Below are positions 1-37,161 of a DNA stretch of 42,250 bases, piece by piece. A program made the position numbers and the translations under genes. The stretch's first letter is position 1, and each line of letters starts with the position of its first letter. The notes beneath the pieces are model-generated. The model did no database searches. It was given only the letters and a program-made list of their open reading frames with translations, and was not told the DNA's origin. The DNA comes from a virus: IMG/VR virus record IMGVR_UViG_3300043395_002155, positions 1 to 42,250 of that record; one strand, given 5' to 3'.

Positions 1-1243
1 TTGTAGAACCAGCCACTGTATTATATGATAGTGGTGCGAACATTGTAAATATTTGTGGTGATACTGATAACTTTTTACTATACTGATATGGTTTAGTCCA
101 AAATGCTACAACGGATGTAGACATATTGTAATCATACTTCTTTTGCTCATTTTGTATAAGTAAATTAATCAATCCCAAATTATATCCGAATACACCTCTT
201 TTTTCTGTTGGCTTAATCCAAGTATATCCCAATAAGTTCATATATGTACCATTCAAATATGCGAATGATGATGAATATGAATTTATAGCATTTAGTTTAC
301 CATTTTGAAAATCCATTTTTGTGTATCCACCGCTAACTATAAACGTTTTCAAATCACTCATTATAACAGCGTTTGCTGAATAACTTTCATCGCCCGCCAT
401 AGATGCTTTAGATATACCAAAGGTTGCGGATTGTAACCATCTACCATCTGGCGATTCTATTGTGGATAAGTCGGATGATAGTAACATCGGATTTGATGCT
501 GCTGCTTTTGTTTTTTTCTTATCCTCTTTCTTTTCTTCCTTTTTTTCCTCTTTCTTTTCTTCTTTAGATTCTTCTTTTTTTTCTTCTGATTTAGATTCTT
601 CTTTCTTTTCCTCACTCTTACTTTCCGATTTAGATTCCTCTTTTGATTCGGATTTAGTTTCAGATTTTGATTCGGACTTTGTTTCCGTTTTGGTTTCAGT
701 TTTACTTTCCGAAGATGATGAAGAACTGCTTGATGAAGATGAACCACTTCCGCTTGAAGATGAACCTCCACTTGCTGGTGGTGGAGTTGAACTACTATTT
801 GAAGGTGGTGGAGTGGTTGGTGGTGGAGTTGATGCGGCCGATGAAGCGGCTGCTGAACTCGCACTACTACTTGCTGCTGATGAAGCGGATGATGATGCTG
901 CTGAACTTGCCGCAGATGCGGCTGCATTTGCTGCTTGTTGTGCTGCAGCATTTGTTACCGCTTGTTGTACAACGGGATTATTGATTACGGGGCAAGTAAG
1001 TGCTTCGTATGTAGCTTTGGTTGTAACCAACCAACTTTGTACTACACCCGTTTGTACCTCCTGTGGAGTAAACGTTCTAATCTGATTATAGAATGATACC
1101 GTAGCGTATCCATTAAACATTGTAGTGGTTGCTATCTTTTTTTCCCCACTACACTTATCTATAAAAGTTTGGGTATAGGTTTGTCCGTTAGCTTTTAAAG
1201 CAAACGTTAACAATATAGCAATACCAATTACCCATTTTTTCAT
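1..1243 (-). CDS. Partial secreted outer-membrane-like protein with long Ser/Ala, Pro and Lys/Glu-rich region
   Basis: The start ATG (1243-1241) overlaps the stop of the upstream lipoprotein gene (TAATG); the C-terminus runs off the left edge, leaving about 414 visible residues. Residues 1-20 form a type-I signal peptide with the cleavage region ANG/Q. A cysteine-containing N-domain follows, up to about residue 90. Residues 95-250 are low complexity: Ala/Ser, then PPP/Thr, poly-Ser, Glu/Ser/Lys repeats and a Lys/Glu tract. From about 265 on the pattern alternates like a beta-barrel. The stretch around SVSPQIFTMF resembles NISPQIFAMS in the protein at 8586-9485, so the C-domains are probably paralogous. 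The low-complexity part could be a flexible spacer or a wall- or polysaccharide-binding stalk. Function unknown; outer-membrane location is inferred. Confidence 0.75.
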   Translation of the reverse strand, partial: MKKWVIGIAILLTFALKANGQTYTQTFIDKCSGEKKIATTTMFNGYATVSFYNQIRTFTPQEVQTGVVQSWLVTTKATYEALTCPVINNPVVQQAVTNAAAQQAANAAASAASSAASSSASSAASSSASSAAASSAASTPPPTTPPPSNSSSTPPPASGGSSSSGSGSSSSSSSSSSSESKTETKTETKSESKSETKSESKEESKSESKSEEKKEESKSEEKKEESKEEKKEEKKEEKKEDKKKTKAAASNPMLLSSDLSTIESPDGRWLQSATFGISKASMAGDESYSANAVIMSDLKTFIVSGGYTKMDFQNGKLNAINSYSSSFAYLNGTYMNLLGYTWIKPTEKRGVFGYNLGLINLLIQNEQKKYDYNMSTSVVAFWTKPYQYSKKLSVSPQIFTMFAPLSYNTVAGST

Positions 1244-1557
1244 TATTTATTTCTCGGTGCTCTTGGTGGCATTGATGGTCTGTGCCAATTTGGTTGAGGT
1301 CTTACCGGTCTTTGTGGTTGAACTACTATTGGTTGTCTTTTTTGAATGATGATTCTAGGTGAATAAATTGGTGCGTTGTATAACCACCAATTATTATATC
1401 TAAAAGATGGCATTGGGTCTAAATAAAAATCATCATATATAATTCTTTTTCTAACTTCTACCAACTTAGTAGAATCTTTAGGGTCAACCATTACATATCT
1501 AACTGGGGTGCATCCTACCATCACTAATAGTAGTAATGCTGATAATATCTTTTTCAT
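1243..1557 (-). CDS. Small lipoprotein, Pro/Arg-rich C-terminus
   Basis: 104 residues. A hydrophobic N-terminus ends in VMVGC, with the putative lipidated Cys at residue 16, so this is a predicted lipoprotein. The mature part has many Tyr, Trp, Pro and Arg residues, and its last 30 residues are rich in Pro, Arg and Gln with little predicted fold. Its start overlaps the stop of the CsgG-like gene and its stop overlaps the start of the next gene (TAATG at both ends), so the three are translated as a unit. By position it could be an accessory lipoprotein of the CsgG-like pore, but I recognise no CsgE or CsgF signature. Function unknown. Confidence 0.75.
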   Translation of the reverse strand: MKKILSALLLLVMVGCTPVRYVMVDPKDSTKLVEVRKRIIYDDFYLDPMPSFRYNNWWLYNAPIYSPRIIIQKRQPIVVQPQRPVRPQPNWHRPSMPPRAPRNK

Positions 1558-2276
1558 TATTTTGTAAATATTCCTTTTTTAATCATTCTATCTAAAATTC
1601 TAGCACAAGCTATATCCAATGCTTTTTTAGTTGCTATTGAAATAGTTGATTGATTGAATTTCATTTCATCTACAGTTGCATCTGATAAGAATGTTAATTC
1701 TCTTGTCGTTTTTGCTTCACCTAATCCACTTGCTCCGAATACTACACCTGTTTCTGCATCGGTAAATCTAACTTGTAAACCGATACGGGTTACCATCATA
1801 TTCTTAACACCATCTTTTAGGTTTACAGTTTCATCTTCTGATACTGAATAATCATAACATTCAATTGTTACAAAGTATTTTGCTAAGTTAATCTTTCCTC
1901 TACCATCTAATTTGTTTTCAGAAATGCCAGCTTGTGATGCTTGGAATTGCTTAACCATTCTATTCTTAATTTCCGTTTTATCTTCGGTAAATTTAAAACG
2001 ATTAAGGTTTTCCAAATATTCCATTGAAATATTAGCCACACCCAAACCTACTCTCTTTTCTTTCAATTCAGGGTACATCTCATACATCTCATCCGAAATA
2101 CCTGCTTTAAGTATTTGAATAGGAATTTGAGGTCCTTCATAATCTAAGAATTGTGAAATATCGATTGCGGTTTCAAATGATGCTTTATATTGTTCAGTCT
2201 TTGTGCTTCCCACAGTTTGGGCAACCACAGCATTGCTTAACAAAAAGCCAACGAATAATACGAATAATTTTTTCAT
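1557..2276 (-). CDS. CsgG-like secreted protein (curli-type secretion channel family)
   Basis: 239 residues from the ATG at 2276; an in-frame upstream ATG would put 23 extra residues before the signal peptide and inside the terminator, so it was rejected. A signal peptide ends at about VVA/Q (residues 19/20). The mature protein has the CsgG/HfaB layout: an N-terminal alpha/beta part with GISENKLDGRGKINLAKYFV, then a strand with LQVRFTDAETGVVFGASG like the VDLRLVDTRTGEV segment of CsgG, then a C-terminal helix of Ala and Lys. CsgG is a nonameric outer-membrane pore that exports amyloid subunits. The N-terminal lipobox Cys of classical CsgG is absent, because a type-I signal is used. No curlin repeat protein is visible nearby. 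Family call moderate; role as a pore is inference. Confidence 0.6.
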   Translation of the reverse strand: MKKLFVLFVGFLLSNAVVAQTVGSTKTEQYKASFETAIDISQFLDYEGPQIPIQILKAGISDEMYEMYPELKEKRVGLGVANISMEYLENLNRFKFTEDKTEIKNRMVKQFQASQAGISENKLDGRGKINLAKYFVTIECYDYSVSEDETVNLKDGVKNMMVTRIGLQVRFTDAETGVVFGASGLGEAKTTRELTFLSDATVDEMKFNQSTISIATKKALDIACARILDRMIKKGIFTK

Positions 2277-2693: not shown

Positions 2694-3890
2694 TTAATTA
2701 CCTTTTTCAGGAAATCTTGTCCAACCATTACTCCATATAGGTTTATCTAATTCAGGTATTACCACATCTATCTCTTTATTACTCTTTGAAAGTGCTAATG
2801 TTTTCAATTGTTCACTCGTCAAAATTGTAGTTGCTTTACTGATAAAGTTTAGTGTAGGATTAAACGTTCCTACTGAATTATTTTCAAATACTGAAACTCC
2901 ATCTTTTACAAATCCTGCAGTTTCATTACTTTCCAAACTTAAACCACCTTTCATCCAGCCCCACACAATACTATTTTTCATTGTGAATTGAGTTGCTCTT
3001 CTAAATCTTAAACCTAAATTATGGTTTGATAAAGCAGTAGATATATTCGGTCCAACTAAAATCATATTGTAAAGTTTTGGGTGTGTGTAAGGTTGTGCAG
3101 ATGAACCCGTTCCATCATTATCACATTCCACTCCATTTCCAGCATCACCATTATCTACGAATTGTGGGTCTCTCTTTGCTACACCATTTGTTACAGTTCC
3201 AGTGTATCCAAAATCAAAATCGTAATCATCATCTGCGGTTGCATATGCGTATAGATTTTTAGGTGATACAGTTCCACCAAAGAATTCAAATGCATCATCA
3301 TTAGCGTAGATAGTTTGAACATTCTCAATGATTGTTCCACTACCAACTCCACCTAATGTTAGTGCGTTGATTTCAGAATTTGGTAATGCAGCAACTCCCG
3401 CATATTCTATTCTTACATATTTTAATATACCACTATTATCGGTATCAATTGTTCCACCATATGGTCTACCAATACCACCTTCGATTGTTGGTTCTGATGT
3501 TCTATTTGTTTTAGCCATACCCAATATTACAACGCCACCCCAATCGCCAGGTGCTCTTTGACCTTCTGGTTTGCCTGAAGTGAATACGATTGGTTTTGTT
3601 GGAGTTCCTTCCGCAATAATTTGTGCACCTCTTTCAATTACCAATGCACCCTTTTCTGCAATATCAGATACGATTGTTGTGCCAGGCTGAATGATAAGAC
3701 GAGAACCATTTGTAATGTAAACATATCCTTTTAACGTCCACACTTTGTCTGCAGTTAAGGTTATAGTTTCGTAATAAGTTCCGTTAAGTGTTGTTGTAAG
3801 TGGAACATTGATTGGTTCTTCTATACCACCCAAATCTTTACTACAACTAAATAATCCTAATACTAAAATGATTGCTAATAACTTTCTCAT
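2694..3890 (-). CDS. Beta-helix lipoprotein, partner of the TonB-dependent receptor
   Basis: 398 residues. The lipobox LFSC puts the lipidated Cys at residue 16. It has the hallmarks of a widespread Bacteroidota surface-lipoprotein family: KVWTLKGYVYITNGSRLIIQPGT near the N-terminus (right-handed beta-helix start), GDWGGVVILG, GGIGRPYGG, IEYAGVAALPNSEINALTLGGVGSGTIIENVQ and DDAFEFFGGTVSPKNLYA. These proteins are usually encoded beside TonB-dependent receptors. Here its ATG overlaps the stop of the receptor gene (3887-3890, ATGA), so the pair is co-translated. Presumably it sits on the outer membrane and captures substrate or caps the receptor; the ligand is unknown. It appears complete and not decayed, which argues for use by the phage. 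Confidence 0.85.
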   Translation of the reverse strand: MRKLLAIILVLGLFSCSKDLGGIEEPINVPLTTTLNGTYYETITLTADKVWTLKGYVYITNGSRLIIQPGTTIVSDIAEKGALVIERGAQIIAEGTPTKPIVFTSGKPEGQRAPGDWGGVVILGMAKTNRTSEPTIEGGIGRPYGGTIDTDNSGILKYVRIEYAGVAALPNSEINALTLGGVGSGTIIENVQTIYANDDAFEFFGGTVSPKNLYAYATADDDYDFDFGYTGTVTNGVAKRDPQFVDNGDAGNGVECDNDGTGSSAQPYTHPKLYNMILVGPNISTALSNHNLGLRFRRATQFTMKNSIVWGWMKGGLSLESNETAGFVKDGVSVFENNSVGTFNPTLNFISKATTILTSEQLKTLALSKSNKEIDVVIPELDKPIWSNGWTRFPEKGN

Positions 3891-6364
3891 AATGATAAAT
3901 TTAATGTTAATGAAATTGTTTGTTCGTTGTTTGTTTTTATTAGATTTCGATTTTGTAACTTTTGATAATAGATTGATGGTTGCGCAAATACATCACCTAT
4001 TGCCAATTTTATTTCTCCTTTCGGAAGTTTATGTAAAAGAGTTATATCCAATACATCTCTACTATTTTCAAAGATGTTTGGGTAACCCTGAAATCCTACT
4101 GCTGATATTCTATCTCCCACTCTATTGTAAGTTATGTTGATAGTATTTTTCTTTTTGTGAATGTTTACTCCACTATTTAACACATAGTTTGATTGTCCCT
4201 GCAATTGTCTTTTCACACCATTCACTTCTACTTCTGAATTCATTACCGAAGCGTTTGTGTAGAAATCAAACCAACCATTTATCTTTTTACGAATTTCCAA
4301 TTCAACACCATATAGGATAGCTGAATTAGGATTTGTGTAAGTTAATAATAAGTTTGATGGAACTGAACCATCTGCTACAATTTGTTCAATTGGTTTAATG
4401 AAGTTCTTACCAAATAGAGAAAGTGAAATGTTCTCACCTGCTTTTGGATACCATTCGTATTTAAGGTCTACATTATATATGTCAGATTTTTCTAACTTTG
4501 AGTTTCCTAATATTTGTGCGTTTCTTACAAAATCATAATAAGCAAAATTAGCTACTTCTCTAAACTCTGGTCTTGCTAATGTTTTACTTAATGAAAATCT
4601 ATACTTTGTTTTTTCTTCGTTGTATGAAAGATTTAGTGATGGTAGTATATCCAAATACTCTCTATCCACATTTACTCTCTGTCCACTAAAATCTGCGGTT
4701 TGGACATCAAATAAATTATACTCACCTCTTAATCCGGTATTTAATTTCCATTTACCAAATTCAGTATCATACATTGTGTAAAGAGAACCTAAATCAAAAT
4801 CGGCTGTGTATTTATCCGTATTGTTTGTAATCTCATCCAACATATCAGTTGATAGGTTACGGAATATTCTAGCATTAAATCCTCTGATTCTTTTTAAGTA
4901 TCCGGCGCCTACTTTAATATCTCCCAATTGTTTGTTGATGTTACCATTAAAAGAGTTCTCATCCATTACACTCCAAAAACGATATGTATCTCTCCATGCA
5001 GTTTGATATGGTTCGTTTACTCCTAATGATTTGGTAATTGGATTGATTCGGTAATCTGGTTGCTCTCTAAAGGTGTATGTGTATCCTACATTAAAATCTA
5101 ATGTTTTAAGCTTACCATCAAATTGAGAACTAATTACAATATTGTTAATATGATTTGATGCAGTAGATAAAACATTCTGAACATTATCAAAGTTATCACC
5201 CTTACGAGTTAAGTATGTATCATCCTTTTGGTAGTTCACTAATGTTTTCCAACTATATCTATTCTCACCTAAATAAGTCAAATTCAATAAACCATTTGTG
5301 GAAAATCTTTTTGTAAATAAAACATCTTTGTAATCATACGCCAATTCAGTTGATGATTGGTAATCTTTTCTATCAATGTTATTAATTGTAAATGAATTTC
5401 GTATTGTAGAACTGAATAAAGAATTCCATTTACCTTTTGTATATCCGAATGATAATCCTCCGTTTAAGTTTGGTAACGATTGTAATTCTTCGGTTGATGG
5501 ATTACCAAATAGTTTAGTGTATGCTCTCTTATCGCCATTTCCACTAATTCGGTATTTGTATGTTGATGGGAATGTGGAAGGGAAATCGGTAGATTGAACT
5601 AACTTGAAATCTTTCGAAGTTGAAACCGAACCCCAACCACTTCCCAATGAGATATTGAAGAAATTATCGGATACTTCTTTTGTTGTTATTTGAACCAATC
5701 CACCTGCCCAATCACCTGGCTGATTTGCTGATGCTGATTTAGAAACTATGATGTTATCAATTAGAGATGTTGGAATTATATCAAATGAAAATGCTCTCCT
5801 ATCGGGTTCGGTTGATGGTAGTTGAGTTTTGTTAAGTAGAGCCGAGTTGTATCTATCTGCTAATCCTCTTACTAATACAAACTTATCGTTTTGTATAGTA
5901 ACTCCACTAACTCTTTTAAGCGCATCACCCACATTTCTATCGGGTGTTTTTTTAATAAAATCAATTGATAGTCCATCCGATACTACATTACTGTTTCGTA
6001 TCGTTCTTACAACTGCCGCTTCGGTTACCTTTTGAGAAACACTTCTTACAACAACTTCGGATAATTGTTTAGTATCTTCTGGAAATATGATATCAAATTC
6101 AGTATCCTTATCAAACACTACTTCGTTTGTATATTCAGTATATCCAACGAATGAAGATTTAATTTGGTATTTTCCTTCTTTTAAGACAATGGAGTATTTC
6201 CCATCCGTATCTGATATGGTTGTGAATACATCACCATTTTGGCTTTTGAAAGAAATGTGAGAGAAATAAAGTGTTTCCGATTTGGATTTTGTAACACCTT
6301 TAATAGTTACTTGCGAAAACAATAAGTTTGGTAGCAGTAACAGTAATAAAAAAAAACGATTCAT
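3887..6364 (-). CDS. TonB-dependent outer-membrane receptor
   Basis: 825 residues, full length for this family. Signal peptide 1-17 (LLFS/Q). Residues 20-95 form a carboxypeptidase-regulatory-like domain (DGKYSIVLKEGKYQIKSSFVGY). LSEVVVRSVS near 98-107 is a likely TonB box, followed by the plug (GDALKRVSGVTIQNDKFVLVRGLADRYN, then DWAGGLVQITTK ending near 230). The rest is a 22-strand-like barrel with typical patches such as LDILPSLNLSY and RFSLSKTLARPEFRE, ending in SLTLNLSL. Such receptors import siderophores, glycans, vitamins or peptides using TonB energy. It is shorter than SusC proteins. It is intact and paired with a beta-helix lipoprotein. It may serve uptake, surface display or decoy; the ligand cannot be read from sequence. 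A receptor of this kind in a phage is highly unusual. Confidence 0.92.
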   Translation of the reverse strand: MNRFFLLLLLLPNLLFSQVTIKGVTKSKSETLYFSHISFKSQNGDVFTTISDTDGKYSIVLKEGKYQIKSSFVGYTEYTNEVVFDKDTEFDIIFPEDTKQLSEVVVRSVSQKVTEAAVVRTIRNSNVVSDGLSIDFIKKTPDRNVGDALKRVSGVTIQNDKFVLVRGLADRYNSALLNKTQLPSTEPDRRAFSFDIIPTSLIDNIIVSKSASANQPGDWAGGLVQITTKEVSDNFFNISLGSGWGSVSTSKDFKLVQSTDFPSTFPSTYKYRISGNGDKRAYTKLFGNPSTEELQSLPNLNGGLSFGYTKGKWNSLFSSTIRNSFTINNIDRKDYQSSTELAYDYKDVLFTKRFSTNGLLNLTYLGENRYSWKTLVNYQKDDTYLTRKGDNFDNVQNVLSTASNHINNIVISSQFDGKLKTLDFNVGYTYTFREQPDYRINPITKSLGVNEPYQTAWRDTYRFWSVMDENSFNGNINKQLGDIKVGAGYLKRIRGFNARIFRNLSTDMLDEITNNTDKYTADFDLGSLYTMYDTEFGKWKLNTGLRGEYNLFDVQTADFSGQRVNVDREYLDILPSLNLSYNEEKTKYRFSLSKTLARPEFREVANFAYYDFVRNAQILGNSKLEKSDIYNVDLKYEWYPKAGENISLSLFGKNFIKPIEQIVADGSVPSNLLLTYTNPNSAILYGVELEIRKKINGWFDFYTNASVMNSEVEVNGVKRQLQGQSNYVLNSGVNIHKKKNTINITYNRVGDRISAVGFQGYPNIFENSRDVLDITLLHKLPKGEIKLAIGDVFAQPSIYYQKLQNRNLIKTNNEQTISLTLNLSL

Positions 6365-6762: not shown

Positions 6763-7437
6763 TTATCCTGCCATTTCGGCATCATCATCTTTTATCTTTC
6801 CACATTTCAAACATTCCAAATCACCATCGTTATCGGAATCACCCCAAATGTGTTCACATTGTCTATGTGCGAAATATACATCAATCTTACCATCACCATC
6901 GAAATCAATACCATCCATAGTACCATCACCATCTTCATCTACTTCAACACCAGTTCTAGGTTGTGCTTTAGGTTTTATATCAACTACGTCAGCTTGAACC
7001 TTATTTTCGGTATATGAAACATCAGTTGGTTTGTTTGCTTCGATTAAGTTGATTTCGTGTGCATGATTTGCTGCCTGAACAAATGCATCTGGAATAAGTG
7101 GTGTTACAGGTTTGTTACTTTCTTTGATATCATTAACACTACCCAATGTTACACCATCTTCCTCATCCATTTTTTGAACTAACATCTTGTCCTTATCGGT
7201 ATCACTAAACCAATAGTCAATGATTTTACCATAAGAACCAATAAATGCTCCTAATAACAATAGTAAAAGTTCTTTCCACTCACCACTAATTGCCGTTTGT
7301 CCTAAAATAGCACCAAAAATTCCCATAATGATGACCATAAAGCCACCCAATACAATCGCAGTGATGAACCATCTTCTTTTCATCATTGCGTTTAATAAAT
7401 CTCTAAAACCACTCGGTGGTTGATTATTTTCTGCCAT
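6763..7437 (-). CDS. Two-TM protein with Ca-loop repeats and a zinc knuckle at the C-terminus
   Basis: 224 residues. Two transmembrane segments (about 22-48 and 56-72) are followed by a polar linker and a C-terminal region with tandem acidic loops: DEDGDGTMDG (167-176), DFDGDGKID (178-186) and DSDNDGD (200-206). These match the calcium-binding DxDGDGxxD loops of dockerins and thrombospondin type-3 repeats. C194, H196, C209 and C212 (CEHIW...CLKCG) could bind a metal. The calcium loops suggest that the tail faces a calcium-rich compartment, or contacts the dockerin-type proteins encoded 2-6 kb upstream in the block. Function unknown. Confidence 0.7.
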   Translation of the reverse strand: MAENNQPPSGFRDLLNAMMKRRWFITAIVLGGFMVIIMGIFGAILGQTAISGEWKELLLLLLGAFIGSYGKIIDYWFSDTDKDKMLVQKMDEEDGVTLGSVNDIKESNKPVTPLIPDAFVQAANHAHEINLIEANKPTDVSYTENKVQADVVDIKPKAQPRTGVEVDEDGDGTMDGIDFDGDGKIDVYFAHRQCEHIWGDSDNDGDLECLKCGKIKDDDAEMAG

Positions 7438-7522: not shown

Positions 7523-7840
7523 TTACCACTTTGGAGCTTCTTCTTTAAACTCATCACCTTCTTTCTTCTTTTCAGGTTTAGCTTTTTCAGCTGCTGGCTT
7601 TTCTACTACTCTCTCTTTGATAATAGTATTAGTACCACCTGCTGCTTGAGATTGTTGATTTGAGTTTGTAATATTGATTACAGGAGCTGCTTGTTGTACT
7701 GGAGCTGGTTCATCACCACCTGTTAATTGTGTTACTCCCCATGTACCAACACCCATAACTGCTGTTGTAGCAACACCGATAATGGTCTTTTTTAAGCCTG
7801 ACCAAGTACCATCATTTGATTGTTCTAATTCTTCTGACAT
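7523..7840 (-). CDS. Single-TM protein with Lys/Glu/Pro-rich tail
   Basis: 105 residues. An acidic, Asn/Ser-containing N-terminus is followed by a hydrophobic segment (about 19-40, IIGVATTAVMGVGTWGVTQL), then a Pro/Gln/Asn linker and a highly charged Lys/Glu tail ending in PKW. It has no lipobox or cleavage site, so the C-terminal tail probably projects from the inner membrane. The layout is similar to inner-membrane spanin or anchor proteins, but a matching outer spanin is not obvious. It belongs to the small membrane-protein cluster 6448-7840. Confidence 0.6.
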   Translation of the reverse strand: MSEELEQSNDGTWSGLKKTIIGVATTAVMGVGTWGVTQLTGGDEPAPVQQAAPVINITNSNQQSQAAGGTNTIIKERVVEKPAAEKAKPEKKKEGDEFKEEAPKW

Positions 7841-7852
7841 GATTGATTTAAT

Positions 7853-8224
7853 TTATAATTTGTTAAAGTCTGTTATTCCTAATTCTTTGCCATTTGAATC
7901 GTATAATCCGATTCTATAAGCTGATGATGGTAATGCTGAAGTATATACTTTTAGTATATTATCTCCTGCTTTTACACTCATTGCTTCTTTTGATACTACT
8001 CTATTTGAGATATCAAATATTTTAATAGTAACAGTTCCAGCGGTTTCCAATTTAACGTTCATAGCCACCTCTGATGTTACAAAAGCTGATTCCAATTTAA
8101 TACCAACCGCAGATTTGATAGCTAGTGCTTCAGATGCTTTTGGTAGTTCTGGCAAAATATCATCATGCTTTGTACATGCTACTAATAGCATTCCACACAT
8201 AATTACTAATAATGATTTTTTCAT
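7853..8224 (-). CDS. Short lipoprotein with a T9SS-CTD-like beta-sandwich domain
   Basis: 123 residues; lipobox LVAC with Cys at residue 17. The mature part (about 40-123) has the pattern GTVTIKIFDISNRVV, then KAGDNILKVYTSALPSSAYRIGLYDSNGKEL, which closely follows the C-terminal sorting domain fold of Bacteroidota type IX secretion (V.I.I.D..G..V...G.N.I.I...L..G.Y.I.L....G). Here that fold is almost the whole mature protein and is lipid-anchored rather than attached to a cargo. It may mimic or bind the type IX machinery, or simply be a reused sandwich fold. It is adjacent to a related lipoprotein (8226-8582). Confidence 0.65.
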   Translation of the reverse strand: MKKSLLVIMCGMLLVACTKHDDILPELPKASEALAIKSAVGIKLESAFVTSEVAMNVKLETAGTVTIKIFDISNRVVSKEAMSVKAGDNILKVYTSALPSSAYRIGLYDSNGKELGITDFNKL

Positions 8225-8225
8225 T

Positions 8226-8582
8226 TTAATTTAGATTGATTGTTGTTTTTTTAATCTCTACTTTATTTACATTTTCCAAAACCAAATATAAATATCGATT
8301 TTGAATTGATTTCGTATATATCTTTAGTTTATTTTCTCCAACTTTACCTATTATTCTTTCCTTACTTATTGTTTGATTGGTGGTCTTATCTACTAACTTC
8401 AATATATAGGTACTATCGGATGTTAATTTGAACATAACTTCTTGTCCATCGGTAATGGATGATTCCGATACTGAAAACACATCCACTACTGGCTTTGGTT
8501 GAGGCATAGGTTCTATTTCCATTTTAGTACAGGATATTATAAAACCCATACAACACAATATTATAATTTTAATCCATTTCAT
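8226..8582 (-). CDS. Short lipoprotein, paralogue-like to 7853-8224
   Basis: 118 residues; lipobox IISC with Cys at residue 18, then a Pro-rich linker (EPMPQPKPV). The remaining 75 residues have the same strand order as the next lipoprotein: SESSITDGQEVMFKLTSDSTYILKLVDKTT, then GENKLKIYTKSIQNRYLYLVLEN. Both look like one T9SS-CTD-like sandwich behind a lipid anchor, so they probably arose by duplication, though identity is low. Only one base separates it from the downstream gene and three bases separate it from the upstream barrel gene, so all three are likely one operon. Function unknown. Confidence 0.6.
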   Translation of the reverse strand: MKWIKIIILCCMGFIISCTKMEIEPMPQPKPVVDVFSVSESSITDGQEVMFKLTSDSTYILKLVDKTTNQTISKERIIGKVGENKLKIYTKSIQNRYLYLVLENVNKVEIKKTTINLN

Positions 8583-8585
8583 GCT

Positions 8586-9485
8586 CTAAAATTGAAAGTT
8601 TGTTCCTATCATAAATAACAAAGGATTACTCTTTTTATATCCAACCGATTCACCTAATTTATCCCACGTTGTGTTATATCTGATATTAGTGTTTAATATA
8701 AATCTTTTAGTTATTTTCCAATCCATAGAGACCCCATAATATAGGTCTAAATTAAAATCATCCAGATATGCTAAATCTGAAGCCGTACCATTTTTGAATA
8801 CTTTGTAGATATCACTCATGGCGAATATTTGTGGTGATATATTAACCCTTTTTGTTTTTATTGTATATGTGTACATCACCATTCCCTTATAAGTTATTAG
8901 AGAAGATGCTGGTACTATTGGATATATGTTTTTTACCCAATTACCATTTTCATCAACAATAAACTTACCTTCCCAATTAAAAACATCTTCATATTCTCCC
9001 CAAAATGTTTTTGATGCCGTTAAACTATATCCAAATGTTCCGAATTTTTTAGTTCTAAATACATCAACGAATGATAAGTTAATATCCTTTTGAAAATCAA
9101 AATCAGTTGAATAAAATGTTTGTAGAGTTGTAGTTCTCTTTTCGGTATTTTTAGATAAACCATAACCCACACCATAATATTTCCATATTGGATTTATTGA
9201 TGCAGCAAATGAATGACCCCATTGTCCGTTTTTAGATGATTTACTATAACCTAAATTCAAAGTAGTGGATACTTGCTTTCCTATTATACCAATCGAAAGA
9301 TTTGAAGATGATAGAATATCTTTTGAAAAATCTATATAAGATTGTAATATACCCACATCATTCCAATCATCACTTTCACCAAACAATTCTTTTGGTGATA
9401 ATTGCAGTGTATCTGGTTTTGATATTTGTGCAGTTGAAATAAAACTGATGCAAAGTAGAGATAATATGATTATTATTTTTTTCAT
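8586..9485 (-). CDS. Outer-membrane beta-barrel-like protein
   Basis: 299 residues. Signal peptide 1-19 (FISTA/Q). The mature protein is a run of amphipathic strands (for example LSIGIIGKQVSTTLNLGYSKS, WKYYGVGYGLSK, KRFILNTNIRYNTTWD) and ends in TNFQF, a terminal Phe of the kind recognised by the BAM machinery. A segment SITYKG-like through KRVNISPQIFAMSDIYK resembles the C-terminal part of the partial protein at 1-1243. It is translationally linked to the lectin/dockerin/cohesin gene (TAATG at 9485). It could anchor or export those secreted proteins; there is no direct evidence for that. Confidence 0.7.
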   Translation of the reverse strand: MKKIIIILSLLCISFISTAQISKPDTLQLSPKELFGESDDWNDVGILQSYIDFSKDILSSSNLSIGIIGKQVSTTLNLGYSKSSKNGQWGHSFAASINPIWKYYGVGYGLSKNTEKRTTTLQTFYSTDFDFQKDINLSFVDVFRTKKFGTFGYSLTASKTFWGEYEDVFNWEGKFIVDENGNWVKNIYPIVPASSLITYKGMVMYTYTIKTKRVNISPQIFAMSDIYKVFKNGTASDLAYLDDFNLDLYYGVSMDWKITKRFILNTNIRYNTTWDKLGESVGYKKSNPLLFMIGTNFQF

Positions 9486-11773
9486 TATATTACCTTTACA
9501 TTTATTTTATTTAATGATGTATTAAGTGTTTCTACACTCTTTACCGAAATCAAACCTAATATGTTTGTTATTGTGGTTTTTGGCTTGAATACTACTTTGT
9601 ATCCCACATTTGATATCGAACCACCCGATGTACTCAATGAACCCAAACTAATAAATGAACCATTATTTCTACCAAAGTTTGTGGATTGAGTATTGTTAAA
9701 TTCAACTTTAGAAAATTCTAAAACTGAATTATCAAAATGAACATCAAATTGAGTTGCTCCAATCTGATTACCATTTGGATTCAATACAATAGTTGCAATA
9801 ATATTTTCTCCATCCTTTTCCATCATAATATCCGCCTCAACATCTCCTACTGAATTAGATGAAACCGCCATTGATTTAATTTGAGATACATCGCCGTTAT
9901 TTGCAGAAGGTATAAATCCGGTTGGTTGTGATGAATGAGAAAGATTTACATCACCTTTCCAAGATATATCTAAACTATAAGAATTAAGTGTACCATTTGT
10001 AAATGTGAATGGGTATCTATATCTCGTAATTCCGGTGTAAGTGTTCCAATTTTGTTTTGTGATATTATCGTATGCAGATGAATTTACAATCTTCATAATA
10101 TCACCTAATGCCGGTGGGTTTGGCCACAAAGAAGTTGTGCCCTGTAAATGTGTTAGTAATGCGTAACAATCTCTTTCATCAAACATTCCATCATCATTTA
10201 CATCTGCATTATGAAATTGAATACCTGATGTAAAATATTTGCTTTCATCTCCCAATATTCCTCTATCTGCAAATTCTTTAAATGCTAAATAAACATCACC
10301 AACAGTAACTGCACTTCCTAATAATGTAAGTAAATCACTTTGTTGAATATCCATAGAAATTTTATGGTATTTAAACATTGTGTTTTGTTGAAAGGTAAAT
10401 TCTGCTTTTGTACCATACCAACCATCTTGTAATCTCAATTGAGCTTGATATGCTGATGATGTGATTTTATCTGTAAGATTACCCGGCATCACATATATTT
10501 TCCACCAACCACTTATATTGTTTACTGTCACCGGCCCATTGTAAATATCAAACAATTGAATCGATTTTACATCGTTTGGTGATACACCCGTACCATCGAA
10601 TTCTCTTTGGTCTATTAGTAATTGGTGTCCACCTAAACTTGCATTATAAGGATTTATAATTGCCCATTCTACTTGACCAGCGGTTGTAGATGCTTTATAT
10701 CCTGTTCCGCTGATTTGTGCGGTATCTATCTGATTAGTTAAATCTACTCTACCAATACCATTAAGAGTAACTAAAGCGTTATTTGTATTATATGTAATAT
10801 CATCCGTAGAAGTTATAATCTTTGATTTGAATTTTGTTTCATCTACATTGTTTCCAAAATTAAAATTGAATTGTGCTCTTAATGTGTTTCCATTTGAATG
10901 TATAACACTATTAGAAACGAATTCAGTAAATGTTTGGTCATCAGGGTTTGTCCAAGTTCCAAATTCAACTACATATGGATTTACAAATGAATTAGGTAAA
11001 TCATTCCATTGAGTTCCACCACCCCATTTAGTTACAGGGTAATCTTCGTTACCACTATTGTTTGGTTCACCTGGTGCCCAGTTGTTATATTGTCCTTGTA
11101 TGTTACCTGCGGTTTGACCATTGGATGTTTTAATTAAAGTTCCTGATTCAGGACCAGCATCAATTATCCATCTACCTTCGGTTACTTCATCGGTACATGC
11201 AAACCATATATTTGATTGTGGTACATTAGCAAGAATAAAGGCATCTTCATCTGCCGATGTTAATGTTACCAAATATCCCATCTGTCCTTTGAATGTTTGT
11301 TGTGATGAAAGTAGTTTAGCATTTGAATATGTTGCACCTGTTGAAACGGGTCTATAAAAGTGGCCATTAGAGGGATTATAATAATATCCACTTGGATTTA
11401 CAGTTGCCGATATCGATATTTGAATATTACCCGCCGTTCCGGTTGTGTTTATCTTTAAGGTTGCCAATGCTATGTTTATATTAGCCATTGTACCTGTAAA
11501 CACTAAACGAGTTTTATTTCCACTAAAGTTAAATCCCGAAGCTGGCGTCAATCCATCGAAACGAGTCATATAAAACGTTGTTCCAGATGGTGATTGTGGT
11601 AAACCAATAGCACAAAGTAAAGTTGCGGTTGAATTGAATCCACTCAAAGAGAATCCACTAGCATCTTGCCCAGCGGTGTTTATTGTAAATGATTTAGGGT
11701 CTGGTGCAGTTACACTCTGACCAAACCCTAAATTACTTAATAATATTAAAAATATAACTAATAATTTTTTCAT
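9485..11773 (-). CDS. Secreted multidomain protein: C-type lectin + dockerin-like + cohesin-like
   Basis: 762 residues. Signal peptide 1-18 (GFG/Q). Residues 20-125 look like a beta-sandwich. Residues 133-272 form a C-type-lectin-like domain: GHFYRPVSTGATYSNAKLL, a long-loop EPNN (236-239), WND (256-258) and a closing VVEF; EPN in this motif usually marks Ca-dependent mannose-type sugar binding. Residues 489-546 are dockerin-like: TVGDVYLAFKEF and a calcium loop DVNDDGMFDERD (524-535). A WKGDVNLSHSS element follows (605-613). Residues 642-762 look like a cohesin (GATQFDVHFDNSVLEFSKVEF, then YKVVFKPK). Carrying both dockerin and cohesin would allow chains or pairing with the paralogue at 11775-13430. 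It is probably a surface or matrix adhesin. Confidence 0.8.
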   Translation of the reverse strand: MKKLLVIFLILLSNLGFGQSVTAPDPKSFTINTAGQDASGFSLSGFNSTATLLCAIGLPQSPSGTTFYMTRFDGLTPASGFNFSGNKTRLVFTGTMANINIALATLKINTTGTAGNIQISISATVNPSGYYYNPSNGHFYRPVSTGATYSNAKLLSSQQTFKGQMGYLVTLTSADEDAFILANVPQSNIWFACTDEVTEGRWIIDAGPESGTLIKTSNGQTAGNIQGQYNNWAPGEPNNSGNEDYPVTKWGGGTQWNDLPNSFVNPYVVEFGTWTNPDDQTFTEFVSNSVIHSNGNTLRAQFNFNFGNNVDETKFKSKIITSTDDITYNTNNALVTLNGIGRVDLTNQIDTAQISGTGYKASTTAGQVEWAIINPYNASLGGHQLLIDQREFDGTGVSPNDVKSIQLFDIYNGPVTVNNISGWWKIYVMPGNLTDKITSSAYQAQLRLQDGWYGTKAEFTFQQNTMFKYHKISMDIQQSDLLTLLGSAVTVGDVYLAFKEFADRGILGDESKYFTSGIQFHNADVNDDGMFDERDCYALLTHLQGTTSLWPNPPALGDIMKIVNSSAYDNITKQNWNTYTGITRYRYPFTFTNGTLNSYSLDISWKGDVNLSHSSQPTGFIPSANNGDVSQIKSMAVSSNSVGDVEADIMMEKDGENIIATIVLNPNGNQIGATQFDVHFDNSVLEFSKVEFNNTQSTNFGRNNGSFISLGSLSTSGGSISNVGYKVVFKPKTTITNILGLISVKSVETLNTSLNKINVKVI

Positions 11774-13431: not shown

Positions 13432-14094
13432 TTATTTTCCCTCAAATAGTTTGGTTATAAGTTTTTCCGATGCTTTCTTTAATGCGTTGCTTAAAGATGT
13501 TTGGTTGAACTTACCACCTTCATCTACTATGAGAGTTGACATTGAGATTTCAGATGAAGATTCTTCAACCATAACCTCTTTAGCCTTTTTGCCATCTTTA
13601 TAAAGGATACCCTTCATTCTGATGACAACTTCTTCTTCGTTTTTGTGAAATACTGAAATGTTTTTCTTCGTTGTTAAAACATCTAAGTAAACGATTTGAA
13701 CTTGTAATTTGTTTGGTGCAGATGGAGTTAAATCCAATCCCTTTTCTTGTAGGTATTCTTCTAATACGTTTTTAACACCAAACTCCAATTGTCTGTTTCC
13801 AGCCAATTTTCCAATTTTTACATTATTTGTTACTGATTCCACCCAAATATGCTCATCGGCATCGTACATAATGTTGCCTGGATGATTTTTGAATGTACCA
13901 TCAAATTTTAGATTAAATGCAGTTACTGCTTTTTGGATTAATTCATCCTTACCCAATGCGGTAAGAACTACAAAAGTCATTTGCGTTAAGAACGCTAAGA
14001 TTACAAACGCAACTGCTGCGTATAAAAAGCTCTTAAAGAGCTTCTCTTTAAGCCACTCTATCGGGCTTATCGAATAGACATTTTTTGTGACCAT
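13432..14094 (-). CDS. Inner-membrane-anchored periplasmic protein
   Basis: 220 residues. One hydrophobic segment (about 22-45, LYAAVAFVILAFLTQMTFVVLTAL) near the N-terminus without a cleavage motif, so it is a membrane anchor. The rest is soluble: LEFGVKNVLEEYLQEKGLDL, PNKLQVQIVYLDVL, EVVIRMKGILYKDGKKA and a C-terminal helix with ALKKASEKLITKLF. This strand/helix layout resembles small periplasmic families such as YajG or the alpha/beta part of CsgG, but the match is weak. It is the first gene of the envelope block after a promoter (14159-14189) and a 10-bp inverted repeat covering its start. Exact function unknown. Confidence 0.65.
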   Translation of the reverse strand: MVTKNVYSISPIEWLKEKLFKSFLYAAVAFVILAFLTQMTFVVLTALGKDELIQKAVTAFNLKFDGTFKNHPGNIMYDADEHIWVESVTNNVKIGKLAGNRQLEFGVKNVLEEYLQEKGLDLTPSAPNKLQVQIVYLDVLTTKKNISVFHKNEEEVVIRMKGILYKDGKKAKEVMVEESSSEISMSTLIVDEGGKFNQTSLSNALKKASEKLITKLFEGK

Positions 14095-14156: not shown

Positions 14157-14189
14157 TATAAATATAGTTTTTTTGATTAACCTTCCAAA
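14157..14189 (-). promoter_or_regulatory. Promoter for the membrane-anchored protein gene and envelope block
   Basis: The minus strand has TTTG (14189-14186), 19 bases, then TATATTTATA (14166-14157). This fits the Bacteroidota primary-sigma pattern TTG-N19/20-TAnnTTTG with A for the last G. The predicted leader is about 55-60 bases and contains the inverted repeat at 14093-14132. The -33 element lies in the end of the cupin gene. Confidence 0.6.
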
Positions 14190-14551
14190 TCGTTCCAAGT
14201 ATTTCTATAAATTCTATAAGAATCCGAATCAAAGTGTTGTGTACTAACTTCTATTATGGTCGCATTGTCATCTAATGCTATTAATTTATGTGGAAATCCT
14301 TTTTCTATATAAACACAATCTCCTTGCTTTAAGGTAGTAAAATGTCTTTTACCATTTTCAGTATCAATCCAATCAAATTGGAATTCTCCACTCTGAACAT
14401 ACCACGTTTCATTTTTAATCATATGGTAGTGCATTGAGAAATGGTTTCCTGCTTTAGTAAATACTAATAGCTTTCCGCAGTATTGTGAATCGTTATGAAT
14501 CCATAATTCATAACCCCACGTTTTTTCTATTTTTATTGGTTGATATATCAT
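14177..14551 (-). CDS. Cupin-fold protein, sugar-phosphate isomerase-like
   Basis: 124 residues, a single cupin. Motif 1 is seen as HFSMHYHMIKNETWYVQSGEFQF (two His and a Glu), motif 2 as GDCVYIEKGFPHKLIAL, followed by IIEVST. This is the form of the C-terminal cupin of mannose-6-phosphate isomerase/ManC and of WbuC-like proteins, so it probably acts on a nucleotide sugar or sugar phosphate, fitting the sugar cassette at 26-38 kb. Metal binding by the three His and one Glu is likely. It overlaps its upstream neighbour by four bases (14548-14551). Confidence 0.75.
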   Translation of the reverse strand: MIYQPIKIEKTWGYELWIHNDSQYCGKLLVFTKAGNHFSMHYHMIKNETWYVQSGEFQFDWIDTENGKRHFTTLKQGDCVYIEKGFPHKLIALDDNATIIEVSTQHFDSDSYRIYRNTWNDLEG

Positions 14552-19052: not shown

Positions 19053-19361
19053 TTAGTTAAACTTTAGTCCGTAAAATTCATAGTTTTTATGAACTGATTC
19101 TTCATCATTCATAGCTATTGCTTCGGCTTCATCTCTATAAATTGCATCAACAGGACATTCTGGCACACAAGCGCCACAATCAATACACATTGATGGGTCT
19201 ATATAGACTTGCTTAGTTGCTTTTTCTTCATCACTCATTGAATATATTTCTTGTCCACGTTTATCTATATAAATAGGTCCGTTTATACAATCAACTGGGC
19301 ATACATTTATACATGCCATATCCAAACAACCAACGCAATTTTTACCAATAATAAAACTCAT
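19053..19361 (-). CDS. Ferredoxin with two Fe-S clusters
   Basis: 102 residues. Cys at 9, 12, 17, 21 and 25 (CVGC, AC, NVCPVDC) and at 59, 62, 65 and 69 (CIDCGACVPECP), with an acidic C-terminal extension. The second set is a classic 4Fe-4S site; the first resembles the N-terminal cluster of seven/eight-iron ferredoxins of the FdxA type (DxACxNVCPVDCI). It is an electron carrier in the cytoplasm. It shares an operon with the nucleotidyltransferase (TAATG at 19361) and lies 1.4 kb downstream of iscA/iscU, whose products could load its clusters. What it reduces is unknown; the ISC pathway itself uses a 2Fe-2S ferredoxin, so it may serve another enzyme. Confidence 0.9.
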   Translation of the reverse strand: MSFIIGKNCVGCLDMACINVCPVDCINGPIYIDKRGQEIYSMSDEEKATKQVYIDPSMCIDCGACVPECPVDAIYRDEAEAIAMNDEESVHKNYEFYGLKFN

Positions 19362-19795
19362 TATTTACCAATTAACCAAGATGATGATTGAATTTTATCC
19401 CCCAATCCGAAAACCAATTCTATACCTAACTTCTCACATATTTCTTTTTCTCCGATAGTATGGACAGTTTGGTCTCCACCATTAGTAAATATAACCCTAT
19501 CAAATTTTGAACCCATTTGATTATATATAAACTCAATAGATTTCTCAACTAATCTACTATTTTCATCAATGGATACCATTGCTTCATCTACTGCCTTTAT
19601 ATTCCTAACAACCAATAATCTTTCATCCTCATTCATAAATTCTTTCGAACCTTTCATCAATCTCTGATAATCATTATTGACTATTACAAATAGAAAATCC
19701 CCAACCGCTTTGGAGCGATTGAGGTATTCTATATGTCCTTTGTGAATCGGATTAAAATATCCACTAGCTATAACTAATGTTTTAATCTTCGCCAT
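19361..19795 (-). CDS. Cytidylyltransferase/adenylyltransferase-like nucleotidyltransferase
   Basis: 144 residues, a single Rossmann-like domain. ASGYFNPIHKGHIEYL carries the HxGH nucleotide-binding motif (as HKGH) and SSSWLIGK at the end stands for the ISSTxLR motif. Middle: FVIVNNDYQRLMKGSKEFMNEDERLLVV. It belongs with RfaE/HldE C-domain, TagD and GlmU-like CTP or ATP transferases and would activate a sugar- or alcohol-phosphate. With the HddA-like kinase (21505-22539) it could form part of an activated-heptose route. It ends overlapping the ferredoxin gene and starts inside the preceding small gene. Confidence 0.8.
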   Translation of the reverse strand: MAKIKTLVIASGYFNPIHKGHIEYLNRSKAVGDFLFVIVNNDYQRLMKGSKEFMNEDERLLVVRNIKAVDEAMVSIDENSRLVEKSIEFIYNQMGSKFDRVIFTNGGDQTVHTIGEKEICEKLGIELVFGLGDKIQSSSWLIGK

Positions 19796-20545: not shown

Positions 20546-20740
20546 TTATCTTCCCCTTTTTCTCCTAAGTTCCATTTCCTTTATGTACTTAGCTGTGTAT
20601 TTGTTTTCAACCGAAATGGGCCCATTTGGTTGTTTATTCAAATCGTATTTCCAAATAGAAACACAATCTTCATCTTCAAATACATATTCGAATTTCTTCG
20701 GTTTTTCTGTTTTACTATTGTTTTCTTTAGTATTTCTCAT
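20546..20740 (-). CDS. Small charged hypothetical protein
   Basis: 64 residues from ATG 20740, which overlaps the iscA stop as ATGA; an upstream in-frame ATG would lie inside iscA. Lys/Glu-rich start, then KFEYVFEDEDCVSIWKYDLN and a basic tail (ELRRKRGR). No signal or TM. Translational coupling to iscA suggests linked expression; a role in Fe-S work is not shown (only one Cys). Confidence 0.55.
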   Translation of the reverse strand: MRNTKENNSKTEKPKKFEYVFEDEDCVSIWKYDLNKQPNGPISVENKYTAKYIKEMELRRKRGR

Positions 20741-21060
20741 ACTGCAAAACTTTCTCCACATCCGCAAGTTCGGCTAGCGTTTGGATTTATGAATTGAAAA
20801 CCTTTACCATTTAAACCATCTGAAAATTCTAATTCAGTACCGAATAGGTATAGTAACGATTTATTATCTACTAATATTTTTACACCTTTATCTTCCGCAA
20901 GTGTATCGTTTGGTTGTTGGTCAGTATCAAATGAAAGGTCATAAGATAAACCACTGCAACCTCCACCTTTAACTGATACTCTCAAATAAGGCGTTTTAAA
21001 ACCACTTTCTTCTATAAGTGATTGTACTTTTTTTGCTGCTGATTCTGATACGGTAAGCAT
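20737..21060 (-). CDS. iscA: IscA/HesB-type Fe-S cluster assembly protein
   Basis: 107 residues, the usual size. The three conserved cysteines are C35 (KGGGCSGLSY), C99 and C101 (RTCGCGESF). N-terminal LTVSESAAKKVQSLIEE and the middle VDNKSLLYLFGTELEFSDGLNGKGFQFINPNA match A-type carriers closely. It receives clusters from a scaffold and passes them to target proteins, or supplies iron. It directly follows iscU (TAATG at 21060). HesB-like single genes are known in some phages; the pairing with iscU is the notable part. Confidence 0.96.
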   Translation of the reverse strand: MLTVSESAAKKVQSLIEESGFKTPYLRVSVKGGGCSGLSYDLSFDTDQQPNDTLAEDKGVKILVDNKSLLYLFGTELEFSDGLNGKGFQFINPNASRTCGCGESFAV

Positions 21061-21470
21061 TATACATGAGTTTCTTCAAATACTATTGGAGTTTCACCAT
21101 TCTTTACTCTATAATCATTTATAGCGGATTTAATAGCATCTTCTGCTAATACACTACAATGTATCTTTACGGGTGGTAGAGCTAATTCCTCAACCAAATC
21201 CATATTATCAATTGTTACCGCTTCATCTAAACTCTTTCCTTTTAACCATTCAGTTGCTAAGGAAGATGCTGCGATTGCCGAACCACATCCAAAGGTTTTA
21301 AACTTAGCATCAGTTATGATACCTTCGTTCACCTCAATTTGTAATCTCATTACATCACCACACTCTGGAGCACCTACTAAACCCGTTCCTACATTGATTT
21401 TAGATTTGTCCAAAGTTCCTACATTTTTAGGATTTGCGTAATGGTCTAAAACTTTTTCACTATATGCCAT
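21060..21470 (-). CDS. iscU: IscU Fe-S cluster scaffold protein
   Basis: 136 residues. Very close to bacterial IscU: MAYSEKVLDHYANPKNVG, GAPECGDVM with C37 and D39, FGCGSAIAASSLATEW with C62, and LPPVKIHCSVLAEDAI with H104 and C105. LPPVK (98-102) is the motif read by the HscA chaperone. All cluster ligands are present, so it should be functional with host IscS (cysteine desulfurase) and HscA/HscB, none of which is encoded here. A short C-terminal extension (GETPIVFEETHV) follows. First gene after a promoter at 21490-21521. Confidence 0.97.
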   Translation of the reverse strand: MAYSEKVLDHYANPKNVGTLDKSKINVGTGLVGAPECGDVMRLQIEVNEGIITDAKFKTFGCGSAIAASSLATEWLKGKSLDEAVTIDNMDLVEELALPPVKIHCSVLAEDAIKSAINDYRVKNGETPIVFEETHV

Positions 21471-21487
21471 ATTATCTTATTTACTTT

Positions 21488-21521
21488 TATAAATATACGG
21501 AAAATTATCCAATTTGCCAAG
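21488..21521 (-). promoter_or_regulatory. Promoter for iscU-iscA
   Basis: TTGG (CTTGG, 21521-21517), 19 bases, then TATATTTATA (21497-21488) on the minus strand. The -33 box lies in the last codons of the sugar-kinase gene. The ATG is 17 bases downstream of the 10-mer, so the leader is very short. Confidence 0.6.
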
Positions 21522-22539
21522 TCCTCATACCAAATTTATTCCATGTAAATGGTTGATGGTATCCCATTTTCAATTCATCTAATGCTTTTATAACATCATA
21601 TTTTGTATTGTTTGGACAATAGAAAAACATAAATCCTCCACCACCGGCACCACTTATCTTACCACCTGTGGCTCCTGCTTTCAATGCGGTTTTATATAAT
21701 AGTTCTATTTCGGGCGTACTGATTCCCTTTGCTAATAACTTCTTTTGCTGAAATCCGTAATCTAATATCTCACCCAATTCATCTATATTTCCTTTGATAA
21801 GGCAATCTTTAATCATTTTTGCCTGTTCTACTAATGCATGTAATGATAATAGTGATGTAGTATTATTATCTGCCATTTTTTGTACCTGCTCCTCTAAAAC
21901 ATCTGAGCTATTACGGGTAAAATTGGTAAAATACAAAACTATATTGTTTTCAATTTCATCTTGCACTCTATCTCTAATTCTGATTGGGTTTACGATTACA
22001 TCATTTCCTCTAAACTCCATATAATTGAATCCACCAAATGCTGCTGCATATTGGTCTTGCTTACCACCATTCTCTTTTAACTCAACTCTCTCAATTTGAA
22101 TTGCCATTTCAGCTATATCGTACTCACCCAAAGGTAGATTGAATAATTCCATATAAACTCCAATAAGAGAAACTATAAGAGTAGATGAAGTGCCCAAACC
22201 ACTTCCAGTAGGTACATCCTGATTCGTAACTATATCATACCCAATAGGTTCTATTTTGAATCGTTTACAAATGTGATTGTGAGTTGCTTTAAACAACTTT
22301 AATCCATAAGAACAATCTAACTCACTACTAAATTCATGCTCTTCGTATTCATCCTTATTTACCCATTTAAACGTAACTTTGGTATCATCTCTTAATTGTA
22401 AAGATGTATGGGTGAATAAACGAATTGTTGTATTGATTACTGCACCAATATGTGATTTGGTATATTCTGGCATATCAGTACCACCCCCACCAAAAGAAAT
22501 TCTAAATGGAACTTTACTCCTGTATATTTTCTTCTTCAT
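21505..22539 (-). CDS. GHMP-family sugar kinase (HddA-like heptose-7-phosphate kinase)
   Basis: 344 residues. N-terminal SKVPFRISFGGGGTDMPEY, the ATP motif PTGSGLGTSSTLIVSLIG, RVELKENGGKQDQYAAAFGGFNYMEF and GGKISGAGGGGFMFFYCP are the blocks of D-glycero-alpha-D-manno-heptose-7-phosphate kinase and its relatives. It phosphorylates C1 of a sugar phosphate, the step before nucleotide activation. With the nucleotidyltransferase at 19361-19795 and the cupin at 14177-14551 it suggests that the phage makes part of an activated sugar for its glycosyltransferases. Substrate not provable from sequence. Starts inside the preceding HNH-like gene (26-base overlap). Confidence 0.88.
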   Translation of the reverse strand: MKKKIYRSKVPFRISFGGGGTDMPEYTKSHIGAVINTTIRLFTHTSLQLRDDTKVTFKWVNKDEYEEHEFSSELDCSYGLKLFKATHNHICKRFKIEPIGYDIVTNQDVPTGSGLGTSSTLIVSLIGVYMELFNLPLGEYDIAEMAIQIERVELKENGGKQDQYAAAFGGFNYMEFRGNDVIVNPIRIRDRVQDEIENNIVLYFTNFTRNSSDVLEEQVQKMADNNTTSLLSLHALVEQAKMIKDCLIKGNIDELGEILDYGFQQKKLLAKGISTPEIELLYKTALKAGATGGKISGAGGGGFMFFYCPNNTKYDVIKALDELKMGYHQPFTWNKFGMRTWQIG

Positions 22540-37160: not shown

Positions 37161-37161
37161 A

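Follow-up and report, generated by a model that had tools for sequence, protein, structure and literature searches.

A phage-encoded exported protein with C-type lectin, dockerin-like and cohesin modules, and the conserved operon to which it belongs

The locus and its conserved operon

The DNA analysed here (the window) is a stretch of 42,250 nucleotides from the IMG/VR virus record IMGVR_UViG_3300043395_002155. Its minus strand encodes LEC, an exported protein in which a C-type lectin head is followed by a variable spacer, a dockerin-like module and a C-terminal cohesin (Table 1). LEC lies within an operon with the conserved order IM220 – P556 – LEC – (299-aa barrel-like) – lp118 – lp123 – tm105 – tm224 – (tm92) – ~240-aa exported protein. 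P556, which has a signal peptide of its own, adjoins LEC directly upstream; its likely start is the ATG at 13430, the listed start being a TTG at 13445. The order of these two genes is very stable. Among 106 distinct copies of P556 with enough downstream sequence, the next gene is LEC in 91 and a version of LEC with a PA14-type head in place of the lectin in 14, together 105 of the 106, and the gap between P556 and the next gene is 50 nt or less in 103 cases.

Table 1. Positions of LEC, its parts and the neighbouring operon genes in the window.
Feature	Positions	Strand	Basis
LEC, exported lectin / dockerin-like / cohesin protein, 762 aa	9485..11773	-	ORF, signal peptide, 49-member family
LEC Sec signal peptide, residues 1-18, then invariant Gln19	11720..11773	-	sequence
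LEC N-terminal beta domain, residues 20-130, common to giant flavobacterial surface adhesins	11384..11716	-	identity to L114, L115
LEC C-type lectin domain, residues 131-275	10949..11383	-	Lectin_C profile, PDB profile matches, CD23 fold match
LEC EPN sugar/Ca2+ motif, residues 236-238	11060..11068	-	49/49 members
LEC WND sugar/Ca2+ motif, residues 256-258	11000..11008	-	49/49 members
LEC variable spacer, residues 316-470	10364..10828	-	column identity, indels
LEC dockerin-like module with a degenerate loop 1, residues 478-545	10139..10342	-	A4 model, dockerin fold matches
LEC canonical Ca2+ loop, residues 524-535	10169..10204	-	conservation
LEC GDVNLSHS motif (residues 607-614), C-terminal to the dockerin-like module, common to P556	9932..9955	-	A4 alignment, hhalign
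LEC C-terminal cohesin, residues 645-762	9488..9841	-	Pfam, Foldseek
P556, exported LEC paralogue with dockerin-like + cohesin tail, 556 aa	11775..13430	-	hhalign
IM220, membrane-anchored, first gene of the conserved operon	13432..14094	-	homologues in 107 loci
Exported beta-barrel-like protein, 299 aa, C-terminal Phe	8586..9485	-	present in 44 loci
lp118, lipoprotein with surface-export signal (C-T-K-M-E)	8226..8582	-	family conservation
lp123, lipoprotein, surface-export signal C-T-K-H-D-D, C-terminal domain similar to Por_Secre_tail	7853..8224	-	family conservation, weak Por_Secre_tail match
tm105, small membrane protein, operon-conserved, related to immuto gp16	7523..7840	-	
tm224, small membrane protein, operon-conserved	6763..7437	-	
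Exported protein, ~240 aa, operon-conserved, related to immuto gp17 (54% identity)	1557..2273	-	

Several of the neighbouring genes were characterized further. IM220 matches Lipoprotein_16 in Pfam (9.6e-5, below the cut-off). The 299-aa barrel was considered as a PorP/SprF partner, an idea that came from the synteny of a host protein (L115, below), and was rejected after hhalign gave a probability of 1.2 and a PDB profile search offered no support; CsgG was likewise rejected as an identity for the exported protein at 1557–2273, for which there was no Pfam or PDB profile match. An endolysin gene is often found near the operon, several small membrane proteins belong to it or are encoded close by, and in the window it is accompanied by glycosyltransferases.

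The two small lipoproteins bear on how the operon products might reach the cell surface. The lipoprotein export signal (LES) of Bacteroidota has been defined experimentally as C-X-K-(D/E)2-X (PMC5080379). Counting from the lipid-modified cysteine, 83 of the 88 distinct lp123 sequences have K at +3 and 71 of the 88 have D/E at +5, the corresponding counts for the lp118 family being 58 and 46 of 61. Judged from their sequences, both families resemble the LES rule, lp118 more weakly with mostly one acidic residue, at +5; LEC itself has no LES signal. Similarity to a sorting domain of the type IX secretion system (T9SS), weak but recurrent, was found at E<=0.01 in 15 of the 22 records searched. 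The Por_Secre_tail-like match lies in gp15 in immuto, a cultured Flavobacterium phage, and falls by its coordinates in lp123 in the window. No T9SS sorting domain scored above the cut-off in any related IMG/VR record searched, and the type A T9SS C-terminal domain (CTD; PF18962) is absent from the window-type LEC and P556. Since both are without a sorting domain, these two proteins have no evident route across the outer membrane.

The carriers of the operon are real tailed phages, large viruses of Bacteroidota. A terminase is encoded in 13 of 17 records that have a LEC-type operon, on contigs of up to 336 kb, and contamination with host DNA was ruled out by these terminases together with the endolysin and clamp loader genes of the window.

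Modules of the exported lectin protein

The LEC family was aligned as 49 members, the homologues being 48–79% identical to the window protein. LEC starts with a signal peptide, MKKLLVIFLILLSNLGFGQ; a Sec signal peptide is kept family-wide, and the glutamine that follows it (Q19) is invariant in 49 of 49. The first-pass annotation, made from the window sequence, had read LEC as a single secreted phage protein joining a lectin with dockerin-like and cohesin modules, and this reading was upheld by the signal peptide, the motifs, the profiles and the fold models. The structure prediction that it had called for as a check yielded models which, with Foldseek, support all three folds, the dockerin being the weakest; taken together, support is good for the cohesin and the lectin and moderate for the dockerin. 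The AlphaFold2 model of the whole of LEC has a pLDDT of 76 and an overall pTM of 0.49.

The lectin head carries the two motifs first noted there, EPNN (residues 236–239) and WND, of which EPN and WND are invariant throughout the alignment. In the window protein, the Pfam match to Lectin_C (residues 162–268, E=0.0019) is below the cut-off, and when the members were scanned singly 45 of the 49 were matched, the best at 1.6e-8. A PDB profile search with the lectin found mincle and mannose-binding protein (MBP), and Foldseek of the AlphaFold2 model against the PDB found the C-type lectin CD23 (4.6e-3, probability 1.00). By fold and motifs, the head is a calcium-type, mannose-type (EPN/WND) C-type lectin, with predicted calcium-dependent sugar binding. 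It is among the most conserved regions of LEC and is not hypervariable, with a mean column identity of 0.83 versus 0.58 for the spacer, where relatives have gained or lost around 100 aa near residues 359–466 and one has an LCCL insert.

This conservation bears on a further suggestion of the first-pass annotation, a kinship with the lectins of Mtd type and, with it, diversity-generating features nearby, which was not borne out. No reverse transcriptase (RT) was found in 17 phage records, LEC has a signal peptide, and another C-type lectin, such as one encoded by a tail gene, was not detected in any of the 17. Detectable C-type lectins numbered one each in 12 of these records and none in the other five, where "none detected" does not mean absent, as the window's own lectin is below that detection threshold. 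An identity of LEC as an Mtd or diversity-generating retroelement (DGR) lectin was rejected for its conserved lectin and the lack of an RT in these records.

Part of LEC also has cellular relatives. The N-terminal and lectin part of LEC (residues 21/41–292) is 45% and 39% identical to L114 and L115, respectively, giant surface proteins, some 2000 aa long or longer, in Flavobacteriaceae assemblies. The C-terminal domain of L115 reads as a T9SS sorting signal of type B, and the gene after it reads as PorP/SprF. In the cellular genomes scanned for LEC, this N-terminal and lectin part was found alone, and no homologue with the dockerin–cohesin tail was returned.

At the other end of the protein, the cohesin proposed at the outset was confirmed by Pfam and by fold. 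The Pfam match to Cohesin (PF00963) covers residues 653–744 at E=3.6e-5, with 24.4 bits against a curated cut-off of 24.1, and 26 of the 49 members are matched when scanned singly, the best at 7e-6. In the Foldseek search with the AlphaFold2 model, the first 25 PDB matches are all cohesins (1e-5 to 4e-4, probability 1.00), led by 2vn5 at 1.2e-5.

The dockerin-like module required closer inspection. Classic type I dockerins have two Ca2+ loops. The duplicated pair of Ca2+ F-hand repeats of such a dockerin (PF00404) was not found in LEC, where loop 2 is canonical and loop 1 has lost its Ca2+ ligands across the 49-member alignment. The canonical loop, DVNDDGMFDERD, is the calcium loop pointed out from the sequence at first, and its key positions are kept in 48–49 of 49 members: D at position 1 in 49, D/N at position 3 in 49, D or N at position 5 in 48 and D at position 12 in 49. 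The second Ca2+ loop of P556 is also degenerate. Pfam gives Dockerin_1 in the window LEC only at E=0.073 (residues 514–539) and in three of the 49 members scanned singly, the best at 5e-4. The A4 model of the region, made from 123 diverse sequences, has a pLDDT of 88.6 and a pTM of 0.83; dockerins are its top eight PDB matches in Foldseek, with weak E values of 0.4–2.1 and a TM to target of 0.48–0.62, and 14 of the 28 PDB matches listed, at E 0.4 or worse. In a relative with fused genes, L259, the corresponding region matches Dockerin_1 above the cut-off (2.5e-6) and, along some 57 residues, dockerins of known structure (E=0.005). Beyond the module, D608 of the GDVNLSHS motif is invariant in the 123 sequences (A4). 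In an annotated phage collection, the dockerin region matched tail sheath genes alone, and these matches were dismissed as chance.

Two observations extend the first-pass annotation: the degeneracy of loop 1 in the dockerin-like module, and the place of LEC in a conserved operon of secreted proteins.

Separate and fused versions in other phages

The dockerin-like and cohesin modules recur in several arrangements. P556 aligns by hhalign with residues 468–762 of LEC (99.5%, E=1e-22), and 12 of 49 P556 members match Cohesin. Immutovirus was reportedly described by Hoetzinger et al. in 2021. The phage immuto has the LEC-type modules on separate genes: gp13 has Lectin_C (3e-15) and a dockerin-like tail, gp14 has a tail of this kind behind a weak cohesin (0.005), and gp15 has a Cohesin (5.9e-9) and a Por_Secre_tail, the T9SS sorting domain (2.4e-8). 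The dockerin calls for gp13 and gp14 come from reading of the sequence and from relatives, such as the gp13-like protein of L257 with Dockerin_1 at 0.00059. Relatives of tm105 and of the 240-aa exported protein follow after gp13–gp15.

In L250, L251 and L259, the gp14 and gp15 parts form one protein with Dockerin_1, Cohesin and Por_Secre_tail; the L251 protein matches them at 0.0014, 5.7e-11 and 1.9e-9, respectively, and L259 aligns across gp14 and gp15 of immuto over 94% of its length, with E down to 2e-69. It is this fusion, with an iterated profile, that links gp14 to the system, as gp14, when compared by hhalign with the families of LEC and P556, was matched in the signal peptide alone. 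The gp13 slot in other phages holds PA14, GEVED, or a Lectin_C interrupted by Laminin_G_3. Such splitting and fusion, with exchange of heads and conserved joints, is what a modular complex would show, as seen through comparative anatomy. The joining of cohesin and dockerin proposed in the first-pass annotation gained ground from these modules on separate or fused proteins and from the paralogue P556 with the same tail directly upstream of LEC.

Proposed role and related systems

The preferred reading, with a probability of about 0.6, is that LEC is the glycan-binding subunit of a phage-encoded complex jointed by cohesin and dockerin, exported and carried on the surface of the infected Bacteroidota cell. 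The infected cell would export the proteins of the operon via Sec, and the dockerin of one protein would bind the cohesin of the other to form short chains or a network. What holds the complex at the outer membrane may be the LES lipoproteins in the window type and the T9SS-anchored cohesin in the immuto type, with the exchangeable head binding a glycan of the host surface. Its most likely use would be to cap the phage's own glycan receptor, leading to superinfection exclusion and sparing the progeny from debris; alternatively, infected cells might stick to their neighbours. The Llp lipoprotein of phage T5 works on the periplasmic side and binds a protein, FhuA, whereas the lipoproteins here look surface-exposed and the binder would be a lectin for glycan. 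Receptor capping fits the glycosyltransferases in the window, and Llp, a phage-encoded superinfection-exclusion lipoprotein of the outer membrane that acts on the host's phage receptor (PMC9586334), is a precedent for the same proposed logic.

Several points count against the complex: the dockerin-like module of LEC has one canonical Ca2+ loop and fold matches at E ~0.4 or worse, the second loop of P556 is degenerate too, the window-type LEC and P556 have no T9SS CTD to take them across the outer membrane, and a dockerin might fold onto the cohesin of its own chain. The latter would make a rigid stalk of each protein, with no joining between proteins; it would agree with the presence of both modules in one chain in LEC and in P556 and is compatible with the monomer model (overall pTM 0.49). 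This is unlikely, however, as the immuto-type modules are on different proteins (dockerin-like on gp13 and gp14, cohesin on gp15), two of which are fused elsewhere, an arrangement that fits joining between proteins better. Rather improbable is a function in the lysis phase, whereby the operon would help to break up the outer membrane at a late stage, with the lectin and cohesin proteins as scaffolds rather than surface adhesins; the endolysin, the small membrane proteins and the exported barrel-like proteins that accompany the operon are in keeping with it, but the sugar-binding head, its exchange for PA14, GEVED or Laminin_G_3 and the surface-export signals point outward and not to the peptidoglycan or periplasm, and no holin or spanin family was matched. 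Least probable of all is a lectin on the phage particle, as a decoration or receptor-binding protein that finds host or particle glycans in the manner of Mtd or tail-fibre lectins, since C-type lectin folds known on phage tails and an operon often near an endolysin gene are outweighed by the family-wide Sec signal peptide, the T9SS CTD or LES signals on partner proteins, the position of the immuto operon (about 11–14 kb) more than 100 kb from the terminase (119 kb), and the lack of an RT/DGR and of a second C-type lectin in the records scanned.

The surface complex can be compared with several known systems. Most known cohesin–dockerin joints come from cellulose-degrading bacteria. The phage system shares with the cellulosome a cohesin fold, a dockerin-like module of the F-hand kind whose Ca2+ loop is conserved, and complementary modules on separate proteins, with the cohesin probably surface-anchored in the immuto type. 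It differs in its glycan-binding heads, its single canonical Ca2+ loop, its encoding by phages and its anchoring by T9SS or lipoprotein in a Gram-negative host; cellulosomal dockerins are borne by enzymes, and no enzyme domain was found in LEC, P556 or immuto gp13–gp15. The giant flavobacterial adhesins (L114, L115; SprB-like) are likewise exported surface proteins of Bacteroidota and share the N-terminal and C-type lectin module, but they are host proteins in which no dockerin/cohesin tail was matched, and L115 has a CTD resembling type B and lies next to a PorP/SprF-like gene, whereas the 299-aa barrel of the phage is not SprF by sequence. Mtd and DGR lectins have the C-type lectin fold in a phage protein in common with LEC, which in contrast is exported, has a calcium-type EPN/WND sugar site and is without RT or a variable lectin.

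A related phage case is Cryophage, for which phage-encoded T9SS cargo with type-A sorting domains, including a PA14-domain protein, is described in Bellas et al. 2020 (PMC7468147), export to the host surface being presumed. The account of this cargo mentions no cohesin/dockerin assembly, and the window-type proteins differ in having no CTD. No report of phage-encoded cohesin/dockerin assemblies was found in the literature searched, which left most subscription journals outside. Phage T9SS cargo is thus already known, and it is the cohesin–dockerin assembly in a phage setting that appears to be new.

A wider reading, held only tentatively, is that LEC represents a widespread virus-encoded, cellulosome-like adhesion system in which exchangeable glycan-binding heads are joined to surface-anchored partners, perhaps crossing the outer membrane by hitchhiking on a partner exported by T9SS or LES. 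If true, phages would have a new class of system for surface remodelling or superinfection exclusion. Proof of binding and of display on the surface would make it more than a known kind of assembly found in a new place. Such a system, conserved, modular and exported, with swappable sugar-binding heads in more than 100 Bacteroidota phage contigs, would mean that jointed lectin structures are built by phages on the surface of the infected cell and would suggest piggyback export, approachable in the cultured pair of immuto and Flavobacterium sp. LMO8, and it would supply new natural cohesin–dockerin pairs.

Possible glycan-synthesis and Fe-S-type genes

The two glycosyltransferases, the GHMP sugar kinase, the nucleotidyltransferase-like protein and the sugar cupin, all carried by one phage, possibly make up a set for surface-glycan synthesis. 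Judged by eye from their translations alone, two small proteins and a ferredoxin-like protein look like Fe-S-type proteins.

Additional features of the window
Feature	Position	Strand	Remark
Exported protein, truncated by window end	1-1246	(-)	Compare gp18 of the cultured Flavobacterium phage immuto
Beta-helix-type lipoprotein	2694-3890	(-)	Adjoins the receptor-like barrel
TonB-dependent-receptor-like outer-membrane barrel	3887-6364	(-)	OMP_b-brl_3, 8e-27
Surface-type lipoprotein lp123	7853-8224	(-)
Exported 299-aa barrel-like protein	8586-9485	(-)
Two glycosyltransferases; GHMP sugar kinase; nucleotidyltransferase-like protein; sugar cupin	35892-38541; 21505-22539; 19361-19795; 14177-14551 (-)
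Ferredoxin-like protein	19053-19361		Translation read by eye only
Two small proteins, one resembling an IscA-like carrier of Fe-S clusters, the other an IscU/NifU scaffold	20737-21470	(-)	Translations read by eye only

Other exported proteins

The C-terminal domain of lp123 resembles the sorting domain of the type IX secretion system, without its usual C-terminal end. The truncated protein at the window start consists of an N-terminal domain, a long low-complexity linker rich in Ser, Ala, Glu and Lys, and a barrel-like C-terminal part, which by eye is similar to the 299-aa protein.

The receptor-like barrel

At least 80 viral contigs encode relatives of the TonB-dependent-receptor-like barrel, which share 64-96% identity with it, and in LR745206, a 635-kb phage that is uncultured, relatives of the barrel and of the beta-helix-type lipoprotein likewise adjoin each other. 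Such a phage-encoded barrel could serve as a decoy or as a nutrient channel.
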